DNA of 33,904 nt, taken from positions 1 through 33,904 of the forward strand of contig JADFMY010000022.1 of the NCBI GenBank assembly GCA_022563685.1, read 5' to 3'. Position 1 is the stretch's first letter. The number at the start of each line of letters is the position of its first letter. The notes beneath the pieces are model-generated. The model was not told where the DNA came from, ran no database searches, and worked only from the letters and a program-made list of their open reading frames with translations. Positions 17,387 through 26,742 of this stretch are shown piece by piece. Source of the DNA: Pseudomonadota bacterium. GTDB taxonomy: Bacteria > Pseudomonadota > Gammaproteobacteria > GCA-001735895. A program made the position numbers and the translations under genes.

Positions 17387-18415
17387 CTATACAACAGTGA
17401 TCCAGCTTGCATTTTTTTTAGGCACCATTTTGCCAATCTCACAAGCCTGTGGAGCGACTTTAACAAAATCCTCGACAGCATCCTGCATCACGGCAACCAG
17501 TAATCCTCCGCTGGTTTGTGGATCGCATAAAATATGTTTTTGTTGCTCGCTAAGAGTAGATATATGATGCCCATAACTGTCAAAATTGCGGCTGCCACCT
17601 CCCGGAATACAGCCCATGCGGCGATATTCCTCCACTGCCGGATCCAGTAAGGGAATCCGTTCAAAATCCACTTGCGCAGCAACATTACTACCCTGGCAGA
17701 CTTCCAGCAGATGCCCTAACAAGCCAAAACCTGTGACATCCGTCATCGCTGTAACAGATGGTAGCCGCCCCAGCCGTTCACCAATTTTATTCAGTTTAAT
17801 CATGCTGTTTATGGCGATGTCCTCGTGCTCGGCTTTGAGTTTTTTTTGTTTTTGGGCCGTGCATAAAATACCCACACCCAGAGGTTTGGTTAAATAAAGG
17901 ACGCAACCCGCCCTGGCTCGATTATTCTGTTTTAAATAATCTATCTTAATTCTGCCCGTAGCAGCCAGGCCAAAGATAGGCTCGGAGGCATCGATGCTGT
18001 GCCCGCCAGCCAAAATAATCCCGGCATCTTTACAGGCCTGACGCCCCCCATCAACTACCCTTGCAGCAATATCTGCATCCAGTTTTGCAATAGGCCAGCC
18101 TAATATTGCAATCGCCATCATTGGCGACGCCCCCATGGCGTAGACATCACTCAGGGCATTGGTCGCGGCTATCTGTCCGAAGGTAAAAGGATCATCGACA
18201 ATCGGCATGAAAAAATCAGTAGTACTGATAATGGCCTCTCCGTTGCCCAGATCGTAAACAGCAGCATCATCCTTCGATTCGGTACCTACCAGTAAGTATT
18301 TATCGGCAGTAAATTCTACCTGTCCCTGGAGAATACTGTCTAACATCGAAGGCGAAATTTTGCAGCCACAGCCTGCGCCGTGACTATATTCGGTTAGTTT
18401 TATTTGGGATGTCAT
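17387..18415 (-). CDS. selD: Selenide, water dikinase
   Basis: [12 protein letters not shown] active-site motif; [33 protein letters not shown]. Confidence 0.95.
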
Positions 18416-18418
18416 AAG

Positions 18419-19684
18419 TTATTGACTCAAGTTTATCTTAGCCAGGTAGGCTTTTTTCATTGCAGCCTCAAACTCAATATTGGATGCATACTCGTAACCA
18501 AATACCGGTTTCCACAACCGATGGTTCTCCATACAGAGATAAAAGAATACATCACTTTTCCAGCTTGCGGGGAAACTGTTATATACATGCGAAAAAAGGG
18601 AGAGCTTGATCTTAACCGGATAAGACTGTTTACCGGCGGTATCGACCATAGGCATTTTTAAAATTTGAGTGGGTATCGCTCGTTTTCGAATCTCGCGTAT
18701 CACTGATTTTATATAGGTGAGCGTACCCATCGATACCAGTGCCACTTCTTCTGGTTTAAATAACGAGCTGAGCTGTTCGACAACAAGCTGATAGTCTTGC
18801 TGCCATTGATCGTAATGTATGATCGGGTGAAAGTGGAAACCAACGAGATAACCCGCGTCTGCTACCCTGCGTGCTGCATCCAGGCGTTTATTCAGCGGTG
18901 CAGTACCGTGTTCTTCGAAATTAATCAGGGTAGGCGTATTCAATGACCAGGTGCAAATGATATTTTTTGGCGCATCCACGCGCAACAGATGACTGACATT
19001 AGCCGATTTGGTTTTCAACTCCAGAATAACATTGGGATTAGTCCAGGCAAAATCGATCACCGCATCCAGCACACCATGGCTATTGCCCCACATCAGCGAA
19101 TCGGAAGATTGCCCGGTACCAATGTGGTAAGTCTTTTCCGCATCAAGCTCCAGGTGCTTTAGCTTATCCGCAAAACCTTTATCGAAACTAATCTGCTTGC
19201 CATCGAAGAAGGATTGAATGCTGCAATAACTACAGCCATAACCACAGTTATCAACCGCATCCAGGGTTTGCAGATTACAACACAGAGTACGTGGTGAAGC
19301 GACCGGACAGCGACCCAGACCCAAATTGATTTTTTCGATGGCACGGGGTTTGGACGCTGCACTGATTTTGGGTGTGCTGCCATCCACGGGGTATTGATTA
19401 TCACTTTTTTTATACCCCTCCCAGATTGAATGTAACAGCCTCATGACCCGTTGTTTTCGAAATTTCGTTAATACCCTATGGCTTTTTTCTTCGGGCCAGA
19501 CATCCTCAATAGACTCTGCGCCCCACATTTGGAAATCCAGCGCAATCTCACAGGCCATGCGAGAATCCTGAACGGAAAGACGTAATTCTTCCGCTCTTTC
19601 AGTGAGGAATATTTTTGCTTTCGTTTGGAGTAACTGAAACAGGGGTTGATCTGAAATAGAGGAAATATAAGCAGTCATGTTCAT
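18419..19684 (-). CDS. Spore photolyase-like radical SAM protein
   Basis: CGYGCSYCSIQSFF (CxxxCxxC); GTAPLNKRLDAARRVADAGYLVGFHFHPIIHYDQW resembles SplB. Confidence 0.85.
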   Translation of the reverse strand: MNMTAYISSISDQPLFQLLQTKAKIFLTERAEELRLSVQDSRMACEIALDFQMWGAESIEDVWPEEKSHRVLTKFRKQRVMRLLHSIWEGYKKSDNQYPVDGSTPKISAASKPRAIEKINLGLGRCPVASPRTLCCNLQTLDAVDNCGYGCSYCSIQSFFDGKQISFDKGFADKLKHLELDAEKTYHIGTGQSSDSLMWGNSHGVLDAVIDFAWTNPNVILELKTKSANVSHLLRVDAPKNIICTWSLNTPTLINFEEHGTAPLNKRLDAARRVADAGYLVGFHFHPIIHYDQWQQDYQLVVEQLSSLFKPEEVALVSMGTLTYIKSVIREIRKRAIPTQILKMPMVDTAGKQSYPVKIKLSLFSHVYNSFPASWKSDVFFYLCMENHRLWKPVFGYEYASNIEFEAAMKKAYLAKINLSQ

Positions 19685-19908: not shown

Positions 19909-22900
19909 ATGCCACTAGATGCAAACAATGACCACAACGATGGTCTGAGGTCGGACGAGAACAATCCGACTGGCGCTGCCCTTGTTATCGGCGGTGGCAT
20001 CGCGGGTATGCAGGCCTCGCTTGATCTTGCCAACACCGGTTACAAGGTTTTCATGGTCGAAAAGAACTCGGCCATCGGCGGCAACATGGCGCGTCTGGAC
20101 AAAACATTTCCGTCCAACGATTGCGCCATGTGCACGATCTCGCCCCGTCTGGTTGATTCGGAGCAACATCTGGACGTGGAAGTCCTGACTAATAGCGAAG
20201 TGGTCAAGGTGACGGGAGAAGCCGGAAACTTTACCGCAACCCTGCACACGAAGCCACGGTTTATCGATGCCGATAAATGCACCGCCTGCGGCAAGTGCGC
20301 CGAAGTCTGCCCGGTGCCGAGTGAAAATGATTTTGACGGCTTACTGGTCACACGCCGCGCAGCCTACCAGCTGTATCCGCAAGGCGCACCCAATGCGTTC
20401 GCTATCGACAAGCGTGGTGTCGCACCTTGCCGTGATGCCTGTCCCGCCGGGCAGCGTGCACAGGGCTACATCGCCATGATCGCCGAAGGACGCGTTGAAG
20501 AGGCCTATCGTTCCATCAAACGAGACAACCCCTTCCCCGGTATTTGCGGTCGCATCTGTAACGCGCGTTGCGAGCTTGCGTGCAGCCGTGGCAAGGTCGA
20601 TGAGCCGGTCAATATCCGCAGCCTGAAGCGCTATGTCACCGATATCATGATGCGCAGGGAACGAGTCGCCCCGCAAAAGGCTGAACGCCTGTATGACGAG
20701 AAAATCGCCATTATCGGTGCTGGCCCCTGTGGTCTGACTGCGGCGCAGGATCTCACCCTGGCAGGCTACCAGGTGACCGTGTTTGATGCCCTGCCGGTGG
20801 CCGGCGGCATGCTGCGCGTCGGTGTCCCCGAATATCGTCTGCCTGTAGACATCATCGAACGTGAAGTCGCCGACATTATCGATCTGGGCGTGGACTTGCG
20901 TCTGAATACGACGGTCGACAATCTGGATGACCTTCTGAATAACGGATACAGGTCCGTGCTGATCTCCGTGGGCGCCCATGAAGGGGTCAAGTTGAATGTC
21001 CCTGGCAACGATTTGCAGGGCGTTTTGATTAACACCGATTTCTTGCGTGATGTCCGCATGTGGGAGCGCGATAAGCAAGCCATGGTCAGTGCCGGCAAAT
21101 CAGACCCTGCCACCTCTGTCAGGGGCAAGCGGGTGGTGGTGATTGGTGGCGGTGATGTCGCGGTCGATGTGGCTCGATCATCCATGCGGCTTGGTGCTGC
21201 GAGCGTAGACATGGCCGTGCGCGGCAGCAGTGGCCGGATGCCGGCTTCTGATCATGAGATTGAAGCTGCCCATGAAGAGGGCATCACGATGCATGTGAGC
21301 CTTAATTTTCTGCGCATCCACGATGATGGCAATGGCAATGCTACCGGCCTGGAAGTCCAGGACGTGGAGCGTTTTGAGACCAACGATGAGGGCCGCAAAA
21401 TTGCCGTCATCAAGGAAAATTCCGAACACGTGCTTCACGCCGACGTGATTATCTTCTCGGTTGGACAGAAAGCCGGCCTGGCGTTTATCCCCGAGGATGC
21501 CGGTGTCAGGCTCACCGCCTGGGGCGAAGTCGATGTGCTTAGCCACTCTACTTATGCCACCGACAGGCCTGGCGTGTTTGCCGCCGGTGATGCAGTAACG
21601 GGCACCGCCTTCGTGATCGATGCCGTGGCCAGTGGCCACAAGGTTGCCACCGCCATGCAGCATTACCTGCGTGGCGAAGATATGGAGGTCGCTGAGCCGG
21701 AACACCCCATCGCGACTTTTACCCAGGAGGAGCTCGATGCCCGCGTTTTGAAAGGCGAGCTGGTCCCGACCCCGCGCGTGAAGTTCTCCACCTTGTCTGT
21801 CGAGGACAGAATCGGCAACTTTATCGAAGTTGATCAGGTATATACTGACGAGGAAGCCATGGCTGAGGCAGCACGCTGCCTCAACTGCGGTATCTGCTCG
21901 GAATGCCTGGCCTGTGAAGATGCCTGTGAAATAGGAGCTATCGACATGGACGGGATGGCAAAGACCTATGAGGTCAAGGTCGGCGCCGTGATCATGGCGC
22001 CGGGCTACAGGCTCTACGACGCCGGGCACTCTGAAGAGTTCGGTCTGGGTCGTTACCCCAACGTGCTGACATCGATTCAATACGAACGCCTGTTATCGGC
22101 CTCCGGCCCGACCAATGGCAAGGTGCTGCGTCCGTCGGACAAGCAACGGCCAAAGCGCATAGCCTGGTTACAGTGCATCGGCTCGCGCGATGCCAACCAT
22201 GACTACTGCTCATCTGTATGCTGCATGTACGCCACCAAACAGGTCACCATGACAAAGGGCCACTGGCCTGACATCGACCTGGAAATATTCATCATGGACC
22301 TGCGCTCCTTTGGTAAGGGCTATGAGGCCTATTACAAAAATGCGCGTGACAATTTGAAGGTTCGTTACACCCGCAGCCGTGTCTCCAAGATCATCGAAGA
22401 CCCCGTTACGAAAAACCTGGTGCTGCGCTACATGGATCGCGGCGAAAGCGCAAAGGGTGAAACCAACGAACGTATTCGCGAAGAAATCTTCGACATGGTC
22501 GTGCTCTCCGTCGGTATGGAAATCGACGAGAGCACCAAAGAACTGGCCAGGCGTCTCAAGGTGGAAGTGGACGACTACGGTTTTTGCAAGACCATACAGT
22601 ACGATCCCTTGCAGACCAGCCGCGCAGGCTTTTATGCCGTTGGCCCATTTCGCGAGCCAAAAGATATTCCTGAGTCTCTGCTGGAAGCAAGTGGCGCAGC
22701 CGCTCAGGCCGGGGCCATGCTGCGCAAGTCGCGTGGCACCCTGACCCGTGAAGCCGTGTTCCCGCCCGAGCGGGATATCGCATCGGAAAATCCCAGGGTC
22801 GCCGTCTTTGTGTGTCATTGCGGCACCAACATTGGCGGCTATCTGGATGTTCCAAAGGTAGCCGAGTACGCCAGGGGCCTGCCTGGTGTTATTTATTCGG

Positions 22901-24537
22901 AAGACCCCATGTATGCCTGCTCCCAGGACAGCGTGGCCCATATCACCGAGAAGGTAAAAGAAATGGGTGCCAACCGTGTGGTAATTGCGAGCTGTTCGCC
23001 GCTGACCCATGAACCGGTCTTCCGCAAGGCCCTGCGCTCCGCCGGGCTGAACGCCTATCTGCTCGATATGGCCAACATCCGCAACCAGTGCTCCTGGGTG
23101 CATTCCCACGACTGGGATGCGGCGACCGCAAAGGCCAGGGACCTGGTTCGCATGTCTATTGCGCGGGCTACCAACCTGCAATCGCTGACCACCAGTGAAA
23201 TGCCGGTCCAGCGCGGCGCCCTCGTCATCGGTGGTGGCGCCGCCGGCATGGAAGCCGCAATCACGCTCGCCGATCAGGGCTTCCCGGTTGACCTGGTGGA
23301 ACGCGACAGTGAGCTGGGCGGTGCGCTTCGTCACCTGTATTACGATCTGGAAAACCTCGGCATAGAAGCAGCCCTGCCTCCGGAGGGTTCTGATGAATTT
23401 CTCGGCCCACAGGACTATCTGAAAAAACTGATTGCCAAAGTTGAAGACCACCCATCCATCAGCCTGCACCTGAATGCGGAAGTAGCGGATGCGCAAGGCT
23501 TCATGGGCAACTTTACCTCGACCCTTGCCTACGCAGATCGTCAGGAACGTATCGAGATCAGCCACGGCGCGACGATAGTCTGCATTGGTGGTGTCGAATA
23601 CCGCGGTGGAGAATATGCCTATGGCACCGATCCACGGATCACCACGCAGCAGCAGTTCGAAGGCCTGCTGGCCGAACTCGAAAACGGCGTTGGCGAAACT
23701 CCGAATAACATCGTGATGATCCAGTGCGTCGGACCGGCGGATAAATATTGTGGCCGTATCTGCTGCACCAGCGCCTTGAAAAACGCATTGACCCTGAAGC
23801 GATTGAACCCTCTGGCTCAGATCACCGTGATCTACAAGGACATCCGCACCTACGGCTTCAAAGAGCGCATCTACACCCAGGCCCGCGAGGCCGGTGTCCT
23901 GTTCTTGCGCTACGAAGACGACCGCAAAGCCGAAGTCACAGTCGGTGCCGATGGTGCTCTAAACGTCAGAGTGTGGGAAGAAATTCTCGGCAAACAAATG
24001 GACCTCAAGCCCGATATGGTGGTTCTCAGTATGCCGGTCGTTCCTTCACCCGGCGCAGAAAATCTGGCCAACAAATTGAAAGTCTCGCAAGATGCCAACG
24101 GTTTCTTCCTGGAAGCTCACGTCAAGTTGCGTCCGGTGGACTTCCTCGCCGATGGCGTGTTCATGGCGGGTCTCGCACACTATCCCAAACTGTTGCAGGA
24201 ATCCATCATTCAGGCCAAGGCGGCGGCTGCGCGCGCGGCAACCATCCTCTCGCGTGACACCCTGACTACCGGTGGGCCGGTGGCCGAGGTCAACAGGGAA
24301 ATGTGCGTTGCCTGTCTGACCTGTATTCGCAGTTGCGTCTTTGGCGCACCACGGATTTCCAGCGACGCGAAAGGTGTCGGCGGCATCCTCGGTGCGGCCT
24401 ATATTGAAACTGCACTGTGTCAGGGCTGTGGTCTGTGCATCGCATCCTGCCCGGCTGGTGCTATCGAGTTGAAGCACTACACGGAAAACCAGATCGGCGC
24501 CAAGCTCGATGCCCTGTTTGAAAAGGCGTATGTATAA
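19909..24537 (+). CDS. hdrA: Giant HdrA-like flavoprotein: HdrA module with inserted NfnB/GltD-like module, second HdrA module, C-terminal 2x[4Fe-4S] ferredoxin domain
   Basis: ALVIGGGIAGMQASLDLANTGYKVFMVEKNSAIGGNMARLDKTFPSNDCAMC; IAIIGAGPCGLTAAQDLTLAGYQVTVFDALPVAGGMLRVGVPEYRLP; VVVIGGGDVAVDVARSSMRLGA; ALVIGGGAAGMEAAITLADQGFPVDLVERDSELGG; CVACLTCIRSC...CQGCGLCIASCPAGAI. Confidence 0.93.
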   Translation: MPLDANNDHNDGLRSDENNPTGAALVIGGGIAGMQASLDLANTGYKVFMVEKNSAIGGNMARLDKTFPSNDCAMCTISPRLVDSEQHLDVEVLTNSEVVKVTGEAGNFTATLHTKPRFIDADKCTACGKCAEVCPVPSENDFDGLLVTRRAAYQLYPQGAPNAFAIDKRGVAPCRDACPAGQRAQGYIAMIAEGRVEEAYRSIKRDNPFPGICGRICNARCELACSRGKVDEPVNIRSLKRYVTDIMMRRERVAPQKAERLYDEKIAIIGAGPCGLTAAQDLTLAGYQVTVFDALPVAGGMLRVGVPEYRLPVDIIEREVADIIDLGVDLRLNTTVDNLDDLLNNGYRSVLISVGAHEGVKLNVPGNDLQGVLINTDFLRDVRMWERDKQAMVSAGKSDPATSVRGKRVVVIGGGDVAVDVARSSMRLGAASVDMAVRGSSGRMPASDHEIEAAHEEGITMHVSLNFLRIHDDGNGNATGLEVQDVERFETNDEGRKIAVIKENSEHVLHADVIIFSVGQKAGLAFIPEDAGVRLTAWGEVDVLSHSTYATDRPGVFAAGDAVTGTAFVIDAVASGHKVATAMQHYLRGEDMEVAEPEHPIATFTQEELDARVLKGELVPTPRVKFSTLSVEDRIGNFIEVDQVYTDEEAMAEAARCLNCGICSECLACEDACEIGAIDMDGMAKTYEVKVGAVIMAPGYRLYDAGHSEEFGLGRYPNVLTSIQYERLLSASGPTNGKVLRPSDKQRPKRIAWLQCIGSRDANHDYCSSVCCMYATKQVTMTKGHWPDIDLEIFIMDLRSFGKGYEAYYKNARDNLKVRYTRSRVSKIIEDPVTKNLVLRYMDRGESAKGETNERIREEIFDMVVLSVGMEIDESTKELARRLKVEVDDYGFCKTIQYDPLQTSRAGFYAVGPFREPKDIPESLLEASGAAAQAGAMLRKSRGTLTREAVFPPERDIASENPRVAVFVCHCGTNIGGYLDVPKVAEYARGLPGVIYSEDPMYACSQDSVAHITEKVKEMGANRVVIASCSPLTHEPVFRKALRSAGLNAYLLDMANIRNQCSWVHSHDWDAATAKARDLVRMSIARATNLQSLTTSEMPVQRGALVIGGGAAGMEAAITLADQGFPVDLVERDSELGGALRHLYYDLENLGIEAALPPEGSDEFLGPQDYLKKLIAKVEDHPSISLHLNAEVADAQGFMGNFTSTLAYADRQERIEISHGATIVCIGGVEYRGGEYAYGTDPRITTQQQFEGLLAELENGVGETPNNIVMIQCVGPADKYCGRICCTSALKNALTLKRLNPLAQITVIYKDIRTYGFKERIYTQAREAGVLFLRYEDDRKAEVTVGADGALNVRVWEEILGKQMDLKPDMVVLSMPVVPSPGAENLANKLKVSQDANGFFLEAHVKLRPVDFLADGVFMAGLAHYPKLLQESIIQAKAAAARAATILSRDTLTTGGPVAEVNREMCVACLTCIRSCVFGAPRISSDAKGVGGILGAAYIETALCQGCGLCIASCPAGAIELKHYTENQIGAKLDALFEKAYV

Positions 24538-24993
24538 ATGAGGACCGAAGAGAAAACCTTTGAGCCGGAAGTCGTGGCCTTTTGCTGCCGCCACTGTGCC
24601 TATTCAGCCGCCGATCTGGCGGGCGGTGGCCGCATGAATTATCCATCGTCCATCAAGATTATCGAAATGCCGTGCACCGGCCGCGTTAATGTACTGGAAA
24701 TTCTTCACGCTCTGGAAAAGGGTGCGGACGGAGTTGCGGTTGCAGGATGTCTGCCCGGTACCTGTCACTACATCAAGGGAAACACCCTGGCGAAACAACG
24801 CGTCGACCATGTCATGGAATTACTCAAGACCATCGGCCTGGAAGAGCAACGCGCTCGCATGATCAATATCTCTGCAGCCATGGGGGCGCAGTTCGTTACC
24901 GAAGTGACCGATTTTGTCGAAACTATCAAAGCGCTGGGGCCTTCTCCGTTATCGGGAGAAACCAGCAATACCCGGAAAGAGAGCCAATCATGA
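24538..24993 (+). CDS. mvhD: MvhD/FrhD-like [2Fe-2S] subunit
   Basis: VVAFCCRHCAYSAADLAGGGRMNYPSSIKIIEMPCTGRVNVLEILHALEKGADGVAVAGCLPGTCHYIKGN. Confidence 0.9.
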   Translation: MRTEEKTFEPEVVAFCCRHCAYSAADLAGGGRMNYPSSIKIIEMPCTGRVNVLEILHALEKGADGVAVAGCLPGTCHYIKGNTLAKQRVDHVMELLKTIGLEEQRARMINISAAMGAQFVTEVTDFVETIKALGPSPLSGETSNTRKESQS

Positions 24994-25676
24994 TTGTCGC
25001 CGAACAGAAACCGCTTGATGAAATCAAGTCCATGCTCAAGGGTTGCAAGAAAGTCCTGGCCGTTGGCTGTGGCACCTGCGTGACGGTGTGCTTTGCCGGT
25101 GGCAAACAGGAAGTCGGCATCCTGTCGGCTTCCCTGCGTATGTCCACCGATCTGGATGGTGAAGCCATCAGCATCGATGAAACCATTGTCCAGCGCCAGT
25201 GTGAGGAAGAATACAACGCCCCGCTGGAAGCTGATCTGGAGCAGTACGACGCGATCCTGTCACTGGGTTGTGGCGTCGGGGTTCAGTCCCTCGCCCAGCA
25301 ATTCCCCGGCAAGCGCATCCTGCCAGCGCTCAACACCAAGTTTATGGGCTATCCATCCGAACAGGGTGTGTGGGAAGAACGCTGTCAGGGCTGCGGCAAT
25401 TGCGTGCTTCATCTTACCGGCGGTATCTGCCCGGTCAGCCGCTGCCCCAAGTCCCTGTTCAATGGCCCCTGTGGCGGATCGCAGTCCGGTATCTGCGAAG
25501 TGGATCAGGAAACCGAATGTGCATGGCACCTCATTTGTGAGAACCAGATCAGGCTGGGCCTGTTCGAAGAAATGATGAAAATCCAGCCCGCCAAGGACTG
25601 GTCCTCGGCCCGTGATGGCGGTCATCGCAAGATTGTACGCGAGGATGTTCGCATCCCGGATGTTGAGAAAGCCTAG
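24990..25676 (+). CDS. metV: MetV-like protein (methylenetetrahydrofolate reductase C-terminal-domain, cysteine-rich partner of MetF)
   Basis: MIVAEQKPLDEIKSMLKGCKKVLAVGCGTCVTVCFAGGKQEV...CQGCGNCVLHLTGGICPVSRCPKSLFNGPCGG; ATGA overlap with mvhD. Confidence 0.88.
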   Translation: MIVAEQKPLDEIKSMLKGCKKVLAVGCGTCVTVCFAGGKQEVGILSASLRMSTDLDGEAISIDETIVQRQCEEEYNAPLEADLEQYDAILSLGCGVGVQSLAQQFPGKRILPALNTKFMGYPSEQGVWEERCQGCGNCVLHLTGGICPVSRCPKSLFNGPCGGSQSGICEVDQETECAWHLICENQIRLGLFEEMMKIQPAKDWSSARDGGHRKIVREDVRIPDVEKA

Positions 25677-25692
25677 GACAGAGGATACGACT

Positions 25693-26721
25693 ATGAATAT
25701 GATGAATTTCCCCGCTTTCACTATGCCCGAAAACACCAACACGCCACCCATCGCCGAGCGTTGTGACAGTAATCTGGCCCGCGTACTGGCTTCTGGCGAA
25801 TTTGCCGTAACCGGCGAAGTCGGACCGCCAAAGGGACACGATGCGGAAGTGGTCCGTACCAAGACCCGCCTGTTGCTCGATTGTGTGGACGCGGCCAACG
25901 TGACCGACAACCAGGCCGCCGTGGTGCGCATGAGCTCTATCGCTGCCGGCCTGATCATGATGGAAGAGGGCCTGGAGCCGATCATCCAGATGACCTGTCG
26001 TGATCGCAACCGTCTCGCGATGCAATCCGATCTGCTGGGGGCCTATGCGCTCGGCCTCAAAAATTTATTATGCCTGTCGGGTGACCACCAGAGCTGCGGT
26101 AACCACCCCGGCGCCAAGAACGTCCACGACATCGACTCCATGCAGTTTCTGCGCATGATGAAAGAGATGCGCGACGAAAATAAATTCCAGTGTGGTGAAG
26201 AAATCGCGGGCGGTGGCCCGCGCTTCCTGATCGGTGGCGCAGCCAACCCGTTTGCCGACCCGGCGGAATGGCGGCCCTATCGTCTGGCAAAGAAAGCCAT
26301 CGCCGGGGCGGACTTCGTTCAGACCCAACTGGTCTATGACATGGAGCGCTTTCGCGAATACATGAAGCGCGTGGTCGACATGGGCGTGGCCGAACAGATC
26401 AAGATCATCGCCGGTGTTGGCCCTTTGAAGAGTACCGGTATGGCAAAGTTCATGCGCGACCGTATTCCGGGCATGAGCGTCCCCGACGCGATTATCGATC
26501 GTATGGCCGGTGCGGTCGAAGGCATCGATACGGACAAGAAGCCGGAGCGCGCCACCGCATGGAAGGCCGAAGGCATCAAAATTTGCATCGAACAGGTACA
26601 GGAAATCCGCGAGATCGACGGCGTCGCCGGTGTCCATATCATGGGCATCGAGTGGGAAGAGGCGATTCGCCCCATCGCCGAGGGTGCGGGCCTGCTACCG
26701 CGTCCGATCATCAAGGTATGA
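25693..26721 (+). CDS. metF: Methylenetetrahydrofolate reductase, MetV-associated type
   Basis: GEFAVTGEVGPPKGHDAEVVRTK...DCVDAANVTDNQAAVVRMSS...LCLSGDHQSCGNHPGAKNVHDID...GADFVQTQLVYD. Confidence 0.9.
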   Translation: MNMMNFPAFTMPENTNTPPIAERCDSNLARVLASGEFAVTGEVGPPKGHDAEVVRTKTRLLLDCVDAANVTDNQAAVVRMSSIAAGLIMMEEGLEPIIQMTCRDRNRLAMQSDLLGAYALGLKNLLCLSGDHQSCGNHPGAKNVHDIDSMQFLRMMKEMRDENKFQCGEEIAGGGPRFLIGGAANPFADPAEWRPYRLAKKAIAGADFVQTQLVYDMERFREYMKRVVDMGVAEQIKIIAGVGPLKSTGMAKFMRDRIPGMSVPDAIIDRMAGAVEGIDTDKKPERATAWKAEGIKICIEQVQEIREIDGVAGVHIMGIEWEEAIRPIAEGAGLLPRPIIKV

Positions 26722-26742
26722 TTTGATACAGTGAGAACCGAT

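Follow-up and report, generated by a model that had tools for sequence, protein, structure and literature searches.

What does an HdrA do that carries a GltD/NfnB-type flavin module inside one of its own ferredoxin domains, and which enzyme does it serve in a proteobacterium with oxidase genes? The question is raised by hdrA (19909..24537, + strand), which encodes a 1542-aa fused HdrA (167.5 kDa) with inserted GltD module. The gene lies in a stretch of 33,904 nucleotides (contig JADFMY010000022.1; hereafter the window) from a 3.0-Mb MAG that is 92% complete and whose nearest named relatives belong to the Gammaproteobacteria. What tells most about the protein had been missed by the original prediction: hdrA is the first gene of a five-gene operon, hdrA-mvhD-metV-metF-hdrCB, which by its predicted products encodes a type IV (Hdr-type) methylenetetrahydrofolate reductase (MTHFR). 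The reading favored here, which we consider fairly probable, is that the fused HdrA is the electron hub of this reductase and that the enzyme is in this host most likely run from methyl-THF to methylene-THF.

The open reading frame begins with ATG and is uninterrupted by internal stops; its start is backed by a GGAG just before it and by the N-terminus MPLD, which is also found in relatives. GltD-bearing HdrAs were found in 19 other sequences from Gamma- and Alphaproteobacteria and Chloroflexi, 13 of them full-length, which rules out a fusion generated by sequencing or assembly and shows the predicted 1542-aa frame to be intact and conserved. The domain search by which the original prediction was to be checked returned matches of all three kinds (HdrA, GltD-family and Fer4). 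For example, Pfam recognizes Fer4_20 at aa 172-250, Pyr_redox_2 at 265-576 plus two more stretches, and Fer4 at 119-136 and 1459-1521, and NCBIfam the HdrA2 model in four stretches (905 bits) and PRK12771 of the GltD family at 168-693 (493 bits). In a phmmer search of the PDB the HdrA structures 5odc and 8rvu align to the query in four pieces (23-169, 662-843, 955-1110, 1350-1538), and Nfn, Stn and GltD chains occupy 171-590. The order along the chain is a split HdrA-1 core with GltD/NfnB in the gap, the remainder of this core, HdrA-2, and a 2x[4Fe-4S] tail; each of the motifs quoted earlier lies at its expected place.

The first half of HdrA-1 (aa 22-168; 19972..20412, +) contains the FAD Rossmann motif GGGIAG, PSNDCAMC and, with C124/127/130/134, the first half of the inserted ferredoxin. 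The GltD/NfnB module (aa 171-650; 20419..21858, +) is inserted after AFAIDK, at aa 169-171, and has the Fer4_20 cysteines 174/178/213/217/221/225, the FAD motif GAGPCG, the NAD(H) site GGGDVA and the GD motif FAAGDA. It was rightly described as a complete segment with two nucleotide-binding motifs, FAD and dinucleotide motifs both being intact. The second ferredoxin half comes after the module, which returns to ferredoxin in CLNCGICSECLACEDAC, within a six-Cys half (aa 657-673; 21877..21927, +) common to the tail of the GltD family and the inserted ferredoxin of HdrA. Indeed, the same genome encodes a GltD-family paralogue (L002) with RCLSCGNCFECDNCYGIC at its end, a six-Cys tail like CLNCGICSECLACEDAC. 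HdrA does resume at this motif, as had been noted, but GltD-family proteins, too, have this motif as their tail; the junction thus lies in a ferredoxin half common to both families, which explains how a module of ~480 aa could be accommodated. The second half of HdrA-1 (aa 674-945; 21928..22743, +) follows with the FAD-proximal cluster C756/767/771/772 and the pair E726 and K777.

HdrA-2 consists of an N-terminal cluster domain (aa 959-1100; 22783..23208, +; CHCGTNIGG, C1004, C1029, C1061) and an FAD core without inserted ferredoxin (aa 1101-1455; 23209..24273, +; E1251, K1291, cluster C1273/1281/1285/1286), and is followed by the predicted ferredoxin tail, a C-terminal 2x[4Fe-4S] ferredoxin (aa 1459-1542; 24283..24534, +) that contains the Fer4 match at 1459-1521. 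The predicted structure of HdrA-2 (pLDDT 72.5) matches 5odc_A with an E-value of 1.4e-51 and a TM score of 0.74. An N-terminal CHCG domain and a C-terminal ferredoxin are present in HdrA-2 only, the inserted ferredoxin and PSNDCAMC in HdrA-1 only. A second HdrA core is therefore present (955-1542), as had been claimed, and dimeric HdrA (5odc/8rvu) and GltD/Nfn chains do align, but the protein is not made of two full HdrAs: its halves are complementary, and we infer that HdrA-1 and HdrA-2 together resemble one HdrA dimer in a single chain. The cysteine sets predict eight to nine [4Fe-4S] clusters; for the HdrA of Moorella eight have been predicted (PMC9430772).

Bifurcating and non-bifurcating HdrAs are separated by a Glu/Lys pair, and this signature is found in both cores. 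E726/K777 was mapped directly on E356/K409 of 5odc, and E1251/K1291 was assigned via the matching motif. Across 20 homologues the residues of both pairs are conserved in 18-20, and almost every cysteine is invariant, so that a degenerate second core or insert is ruled out. The motifs were checked for lost cofactor residues in the insert and in the second HdrA unit and are intact; the proposal of three FAD-type modules in one chain has held. Internal bifurcation, which had also been proposed, has the signature of both cores on its side, but bifurcation itself is a signature-based prediction.

The coenzyme of the inserted module can be predicted from its second Rossmann motif (aa 404-452; 21118..21264, +), in which the YRR of NADP(H)-type GltD/Nfn structures is replaced by VRGSSGRMPA. 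This replacement makes NAD(H) the more likely coenzyme, a prediction that fits the activity of Moorella HdrA with NADH (PMC8760232). The original idea of an NAD(P)H port is thereby narrowed: a pyridine-nucleotide site is present in the insert, but NADP(H) is the less likely substrate. The second Arg of YRR is lost in the Proteobacteria and most Chloroflexi copies and retained in three Chloroflexi (L020, L021 and L022), which keep the NADP-type RR motif as VYRRSE; coenzyme preference may therefore have switched within the family. It should be noted that in one of the two GltD-bearing HdrA copies of L023 (8367-13133) the FAD GD motif is degraded to VGGRKTG and a normal NAD motif is missing; judged by these motifs, the insert of this copy appears to be inactive and the other copy active. 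The AlphaFold model of HdrA-1 with GltD (aa 16-960) has a pLDDT of only 61, a pTM of 0.47 and junctions below 50, and was therefore left out of any reading of cofactor geometry; the GltD part of this low-confidence model matches NfnABC/StnABC and GltD folds. Taken with the Glu/Lys pairs, the motifs indicate that the complex is probably NAD(H)-linked and bifurcating.

Downstream of hdrA follow, all on the + strand, mvhD/FlpD (24538..24993; 151 aa, five Cys invariant in 14 homologues), metV (24990..25676; DUF5981/PF12225) for the Fe-S/Zn subunit of methylene-THF reductase, metF (25693..26721) for its catalytic subunit, with a start at 25693 or 25699 and a longer GTG frame from 25612, and an hdrC-hdrB fusion (26731..28179; 482 aa) with two CxxCxxCxxxC motifs and two complete CCG (non-cubane cluster) motifs. 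That both CCG motifs are kept in HdrB would suit an HdrA working in a heterodisulfide- or disulfide-type reaction with the MetVF genes as mere neighbors. However, MetV (PF12225) and MetF (PF02219) are adjacent and stand between mvhD and hdrCB, an order retained in relatives of two classes; in Sporomusa pulldowns MetF binds HdrA, HdrB and MvhD (PMC9430772), and a coenzyme M/B pathway is not expected in this bacterial group. We therefore regard a disulfide reaction as very improbable.

The order of the five genes is identical in gamma- and alphaproteobacterial MAGs, and the flanks vary. Divergently beside hdrA lie selD (NCBIfam SelD, 531 bits) and a gene for a spore-photoproduct-lyase-like radical SAM protein (17387-19684, -); in G012 (L086 5202-7517) the same pair, with 79-81% identity, is found next to hdrCB, where the operon ends. 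A convergent block (28201-32954, -) encodes a HAD phosphatase, an FAD/GcvT demethylase (dimethylglycine dehydrogenase-like) and a non-Pyl MTTB-family methyltransferase, and ends at a LysR regulator; its GC content (0.54-0.58) is similarly high to that of the operon. The MTTB and demethylase neighbors were considered as part of the unit and ruled out because only the five-gene operon recurs in relatives.

In which direction the reductase works must be judged from the host, whose gene content was assessed through family searches. Heme-copper oxidase (COX1) is encoded in 29 of 31 genomes of the genus, the window's genome included. Acetyl-CoA synthase (CdhC) was found in 0 of the 31 and in 0 of 10 proteobacterial carriers, as compared with 7 of 8 Chloroflexi carriers (one a partial match). 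Seven MTTB methyltransferase genes are present in the window's genome (an in-frame TAG in the MTTB fragment L081 8009-8642, considered as pyrrolysine, lies ~50 bases from the contig end and is probably an assembly artefact). A corrinoid gene cluster (L076, described below) and FTHFS, both encoded in this genome, likewise speak for the oxidative reading. With methyl donors, an oxidase and none of the tested methyl routes into acetyl-CoA, oxidation of methyl-THF is the simplest use of the complex.

In the mechanism proposed here, methyl-THF from methylated amines would be oxidized to methylene-THF, with MetF and MetV handling the methylene-/methyl-THF couple. The two complementary HdrA cores would pair within the one chain much as in a dimer. 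The NAD(H)-reactive GltD flavin module sits in the ferredoxin that is inserted in the first of these cores, and would pass electrons between NAD(H) and the flavin of that core via the ferredoxin clusters; HdrCB and MvhD would carry the other electron branch. The reduction potentials are −200 mV for methylene-/methyl-THF, −320 mV for NAD+ and −74 mV for menaquinone. By arithmetic from the first two, electron transfer from methyl-THF to NAD+ is uphill by about 23 kJ/mol and would have to be paid for by paired electrons going to an acceptor of higher potential, plausibly a quinone. In a 2026 model the Moorella enzyme confurcates NADH and menaquinol to methylene-THF (PMC13040438). Reversed, so that methyl-THF yields NADH plus quinol, the model is by the same arithmetic near equilibrium with menaquinone and clearly favorable with ubiquinone. 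We propose this reverse Moorella scheme as the most economical mechanism, with quinone as a plausible partner of the second branch. From earlier work it is known that Moorella HdrA oxidizes NADH (PMC8760232) and that in Sporomusa HdrA, HdrB and MvhD interact with MetF, and HdrA with MetV (PMC9430772). What the sequences show is the anatomy of the protein, its motifs, the operon and the gene content of the host; direction, bifurcation and the role of quinone are what we infer.

Several observations speak against parts of this mechanism. One is a second, simpler MetV-MetF in the same genome (L076 1353-7490) beside genes for an MtgC-like corrinoid protein, DUF1638, a pterin methyltransferase and a corrinoid activase. 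This type of MetV is nearly universal in the genus, and the Hdr-type MetV, and with it the operon, occurs in only 4 of the 31 genomes, so that methyl oxidation in general does not need the operon. Another is that the operon has no quinone-binding or membrane subunit and that no transmembrane segment was seen in it.

Could the complex instead work reductively as in acetogens, NADH and a co-reductant such as menaquinol reducing methylene-THF to methyl-THF to supply methionine synthesis or some other methyl sink? Such a direction has been proposed for the enzymes of Moorella and Sporomusa (PMC13040438, PMC9430772), and the window's genome does contain FTHFS. However, with CdhC in 0/31 genomes of the genus there is no catabolic methyl sink of the acetyl-CoA kind, biosynthesis normally has no need for a five-subunit complex where a simpler MetVF is present, and methyl donors are abundant. 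We consider the reductive direction unlikely. Equally doubtful is a quinone-free oxidation in which NAD+ receives confurcated electrons from methyl-THF and from reduced ferredoxin. Ferredoxin is the classical partner of HdrA complexes, and the 2-oxoacid:ferredoxin oxidoreductase genes in the genome mean that it could be the second partner. Against this stands the position of GltD in the ferredoxin-docking domain, proposed to block ferredoxin access (PMC12054007), and the fact that HdrA-2 is without the inserted ferredoxin. Moreover, the partner of the Moorella enzyme was not ferredoxin (PMC13040438), and a full-score RnfC is missing from the window's genome (G000; MAG 92% complete) and present in 27/31 genomes of the genus. 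Oxidation of methyl-THF with NAD+ and, plausibly, a quinone is kept as the preferred mechanism.

Where the operon came from is suggested by its distribution. In a sample of 200 Pseudomonadota genomes there was no other carrier of the GltD-bearing protein, and in Proteobacteria the operon is a sporadic accessory. In a quick HdrA tree, from which Firmicutes and archaeal type III were left out, all GltD-bearing HdrAs form one clade (SH-aLRT 98), within which the Proteobacteria (SH-aLRT 100) are nested inside Anaerolineae with nesting branches of 83-99. This nesting suggests that the operon may have been transferred from Chloroflexi to Proteobacteria. The operon has a GC content of 0.57, higher than the 0.49 of the DNA upstream and the ~0.52 of other contigs, which is weakly consistent with transfer. 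Plasmid- or virus-borne mobility was considered and ruled out: there was no plasmid match at E<1e-100 and no viral relative. The closest hdrA (81%) is from L014, a MAG labelled Rhodospirillales that is placed within the gammaproteobacterial copies, which reflects either a mislabelled bin or a transfer.

It is possible, if only tentatively to be held, that these respiring, non-acetogenic Proteobacteria have a reversed, flavin-bifurcating type IV MTHFR that reduces NAD+ and the quinone pool and was acquired from Chloroflexi with its NAD(H) module built in. If true, C1 oxidation would feed respiration directly via NAD+ and the quinone pool. The proteobacterial version predicts quinone and NAD+ as acceptors of an enzyme whose second partner has been sought since 2014. 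A version in non-acetogens with respiratory oxidases would also separate type IV MTHFR from acetogenesis. In all 25 reported cases the hosts were obligate anaerobes (PMC6085437), and the complex is now extended to marine amine-demethylating Proteobacteria. Obligate anaerobiosis, which does not fit the gene content of a genus with COX1 in 29/31 genomes, is not itself a property of the enzyme.

Of the known systems, the methanogen heterodisulfide reductase HdrABC differs in having a complete single-HdrA homodimer with exposed inserted ferredoxin, whereas in the window protein this ferredoxin carries GltD and the second core is without it. QmoA/QmoB likewise combine two complementary HdrA-like proteins in one electron hub, but as separate chains, without GltD and with other partners; the same genome has HdrB-, HdrC-, QmoB-like and QmoA-like genes in a row (L084 5503-10599) as a second HdrA-type hub. 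The HdrA of the Sporomusa ovata type IV MTHFR shares tandem TrxR cores and MetVF and MvhD partners (PMC9430772); however, it has 942 aa, no GltD, and E/K in one core only. GltD-inserted archaeal HdrAs were named type III in 2025 (PMC12054007), and those of ANME-1 and Bathyarchaeota also have GltD at the ferredoxin and keep the E356/K409 equivalents. Archaeal type III HdrAs commonly possess a single, HdrA1-like TrxR core, whereas the window protein, with its second full core (955-1542), combines type II and type III.

Anaerolineae have full-length GltD-bearing HdrA at 54-60% identity, MetV/MetF nearby and an HdrC-HdrB fusion; hdrABC-mvhD-metVF clusters were already known from deep-sea Chloroflexi (PMC5736913). 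Most of the Anaerolineae carriers have acetyl-CoA synthase, and in some of them a tandem HdrA without GltD is present in addition, together with two sets of MetVF. For example, in L018 (8177-11755) and L027 (855-4604) a GltD-less tandem HdrA with its own MvhD lies directly upstream of the GltD-bearing hdrA.

A categorically new fusion was considered and is ruled out: the HdrA of Moorella thermoacetica (1487 aa) has the same parts, namely an N-terminal TrxR core and ferredoxin split by GltD, a second HdrA without inserted ferredoxin, a C-terminal ferredoxin, E/K pairs in both cores, three FAD and one NAD(P)H site (PMC9430772; Kremp et al. are cited for the known architecture). For the Moorella enzyme NADH oxidation has been demonstrated, but not electron transfer from NADH to methylene-THF or a second acceptor (PMC8760232, PMC13040438). 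The likeness in HdrA layout and operon partners, which rests on the published description (PMC9430772), ends with the fusion of hdrC and hdrB and with the host, a proteobacterium with oxidase genes and without acetyl-CoA synthase. What is new is the whole operon in marine Gamma- and Alphaproteobacteria that have oxidase genes and lack CdhC.
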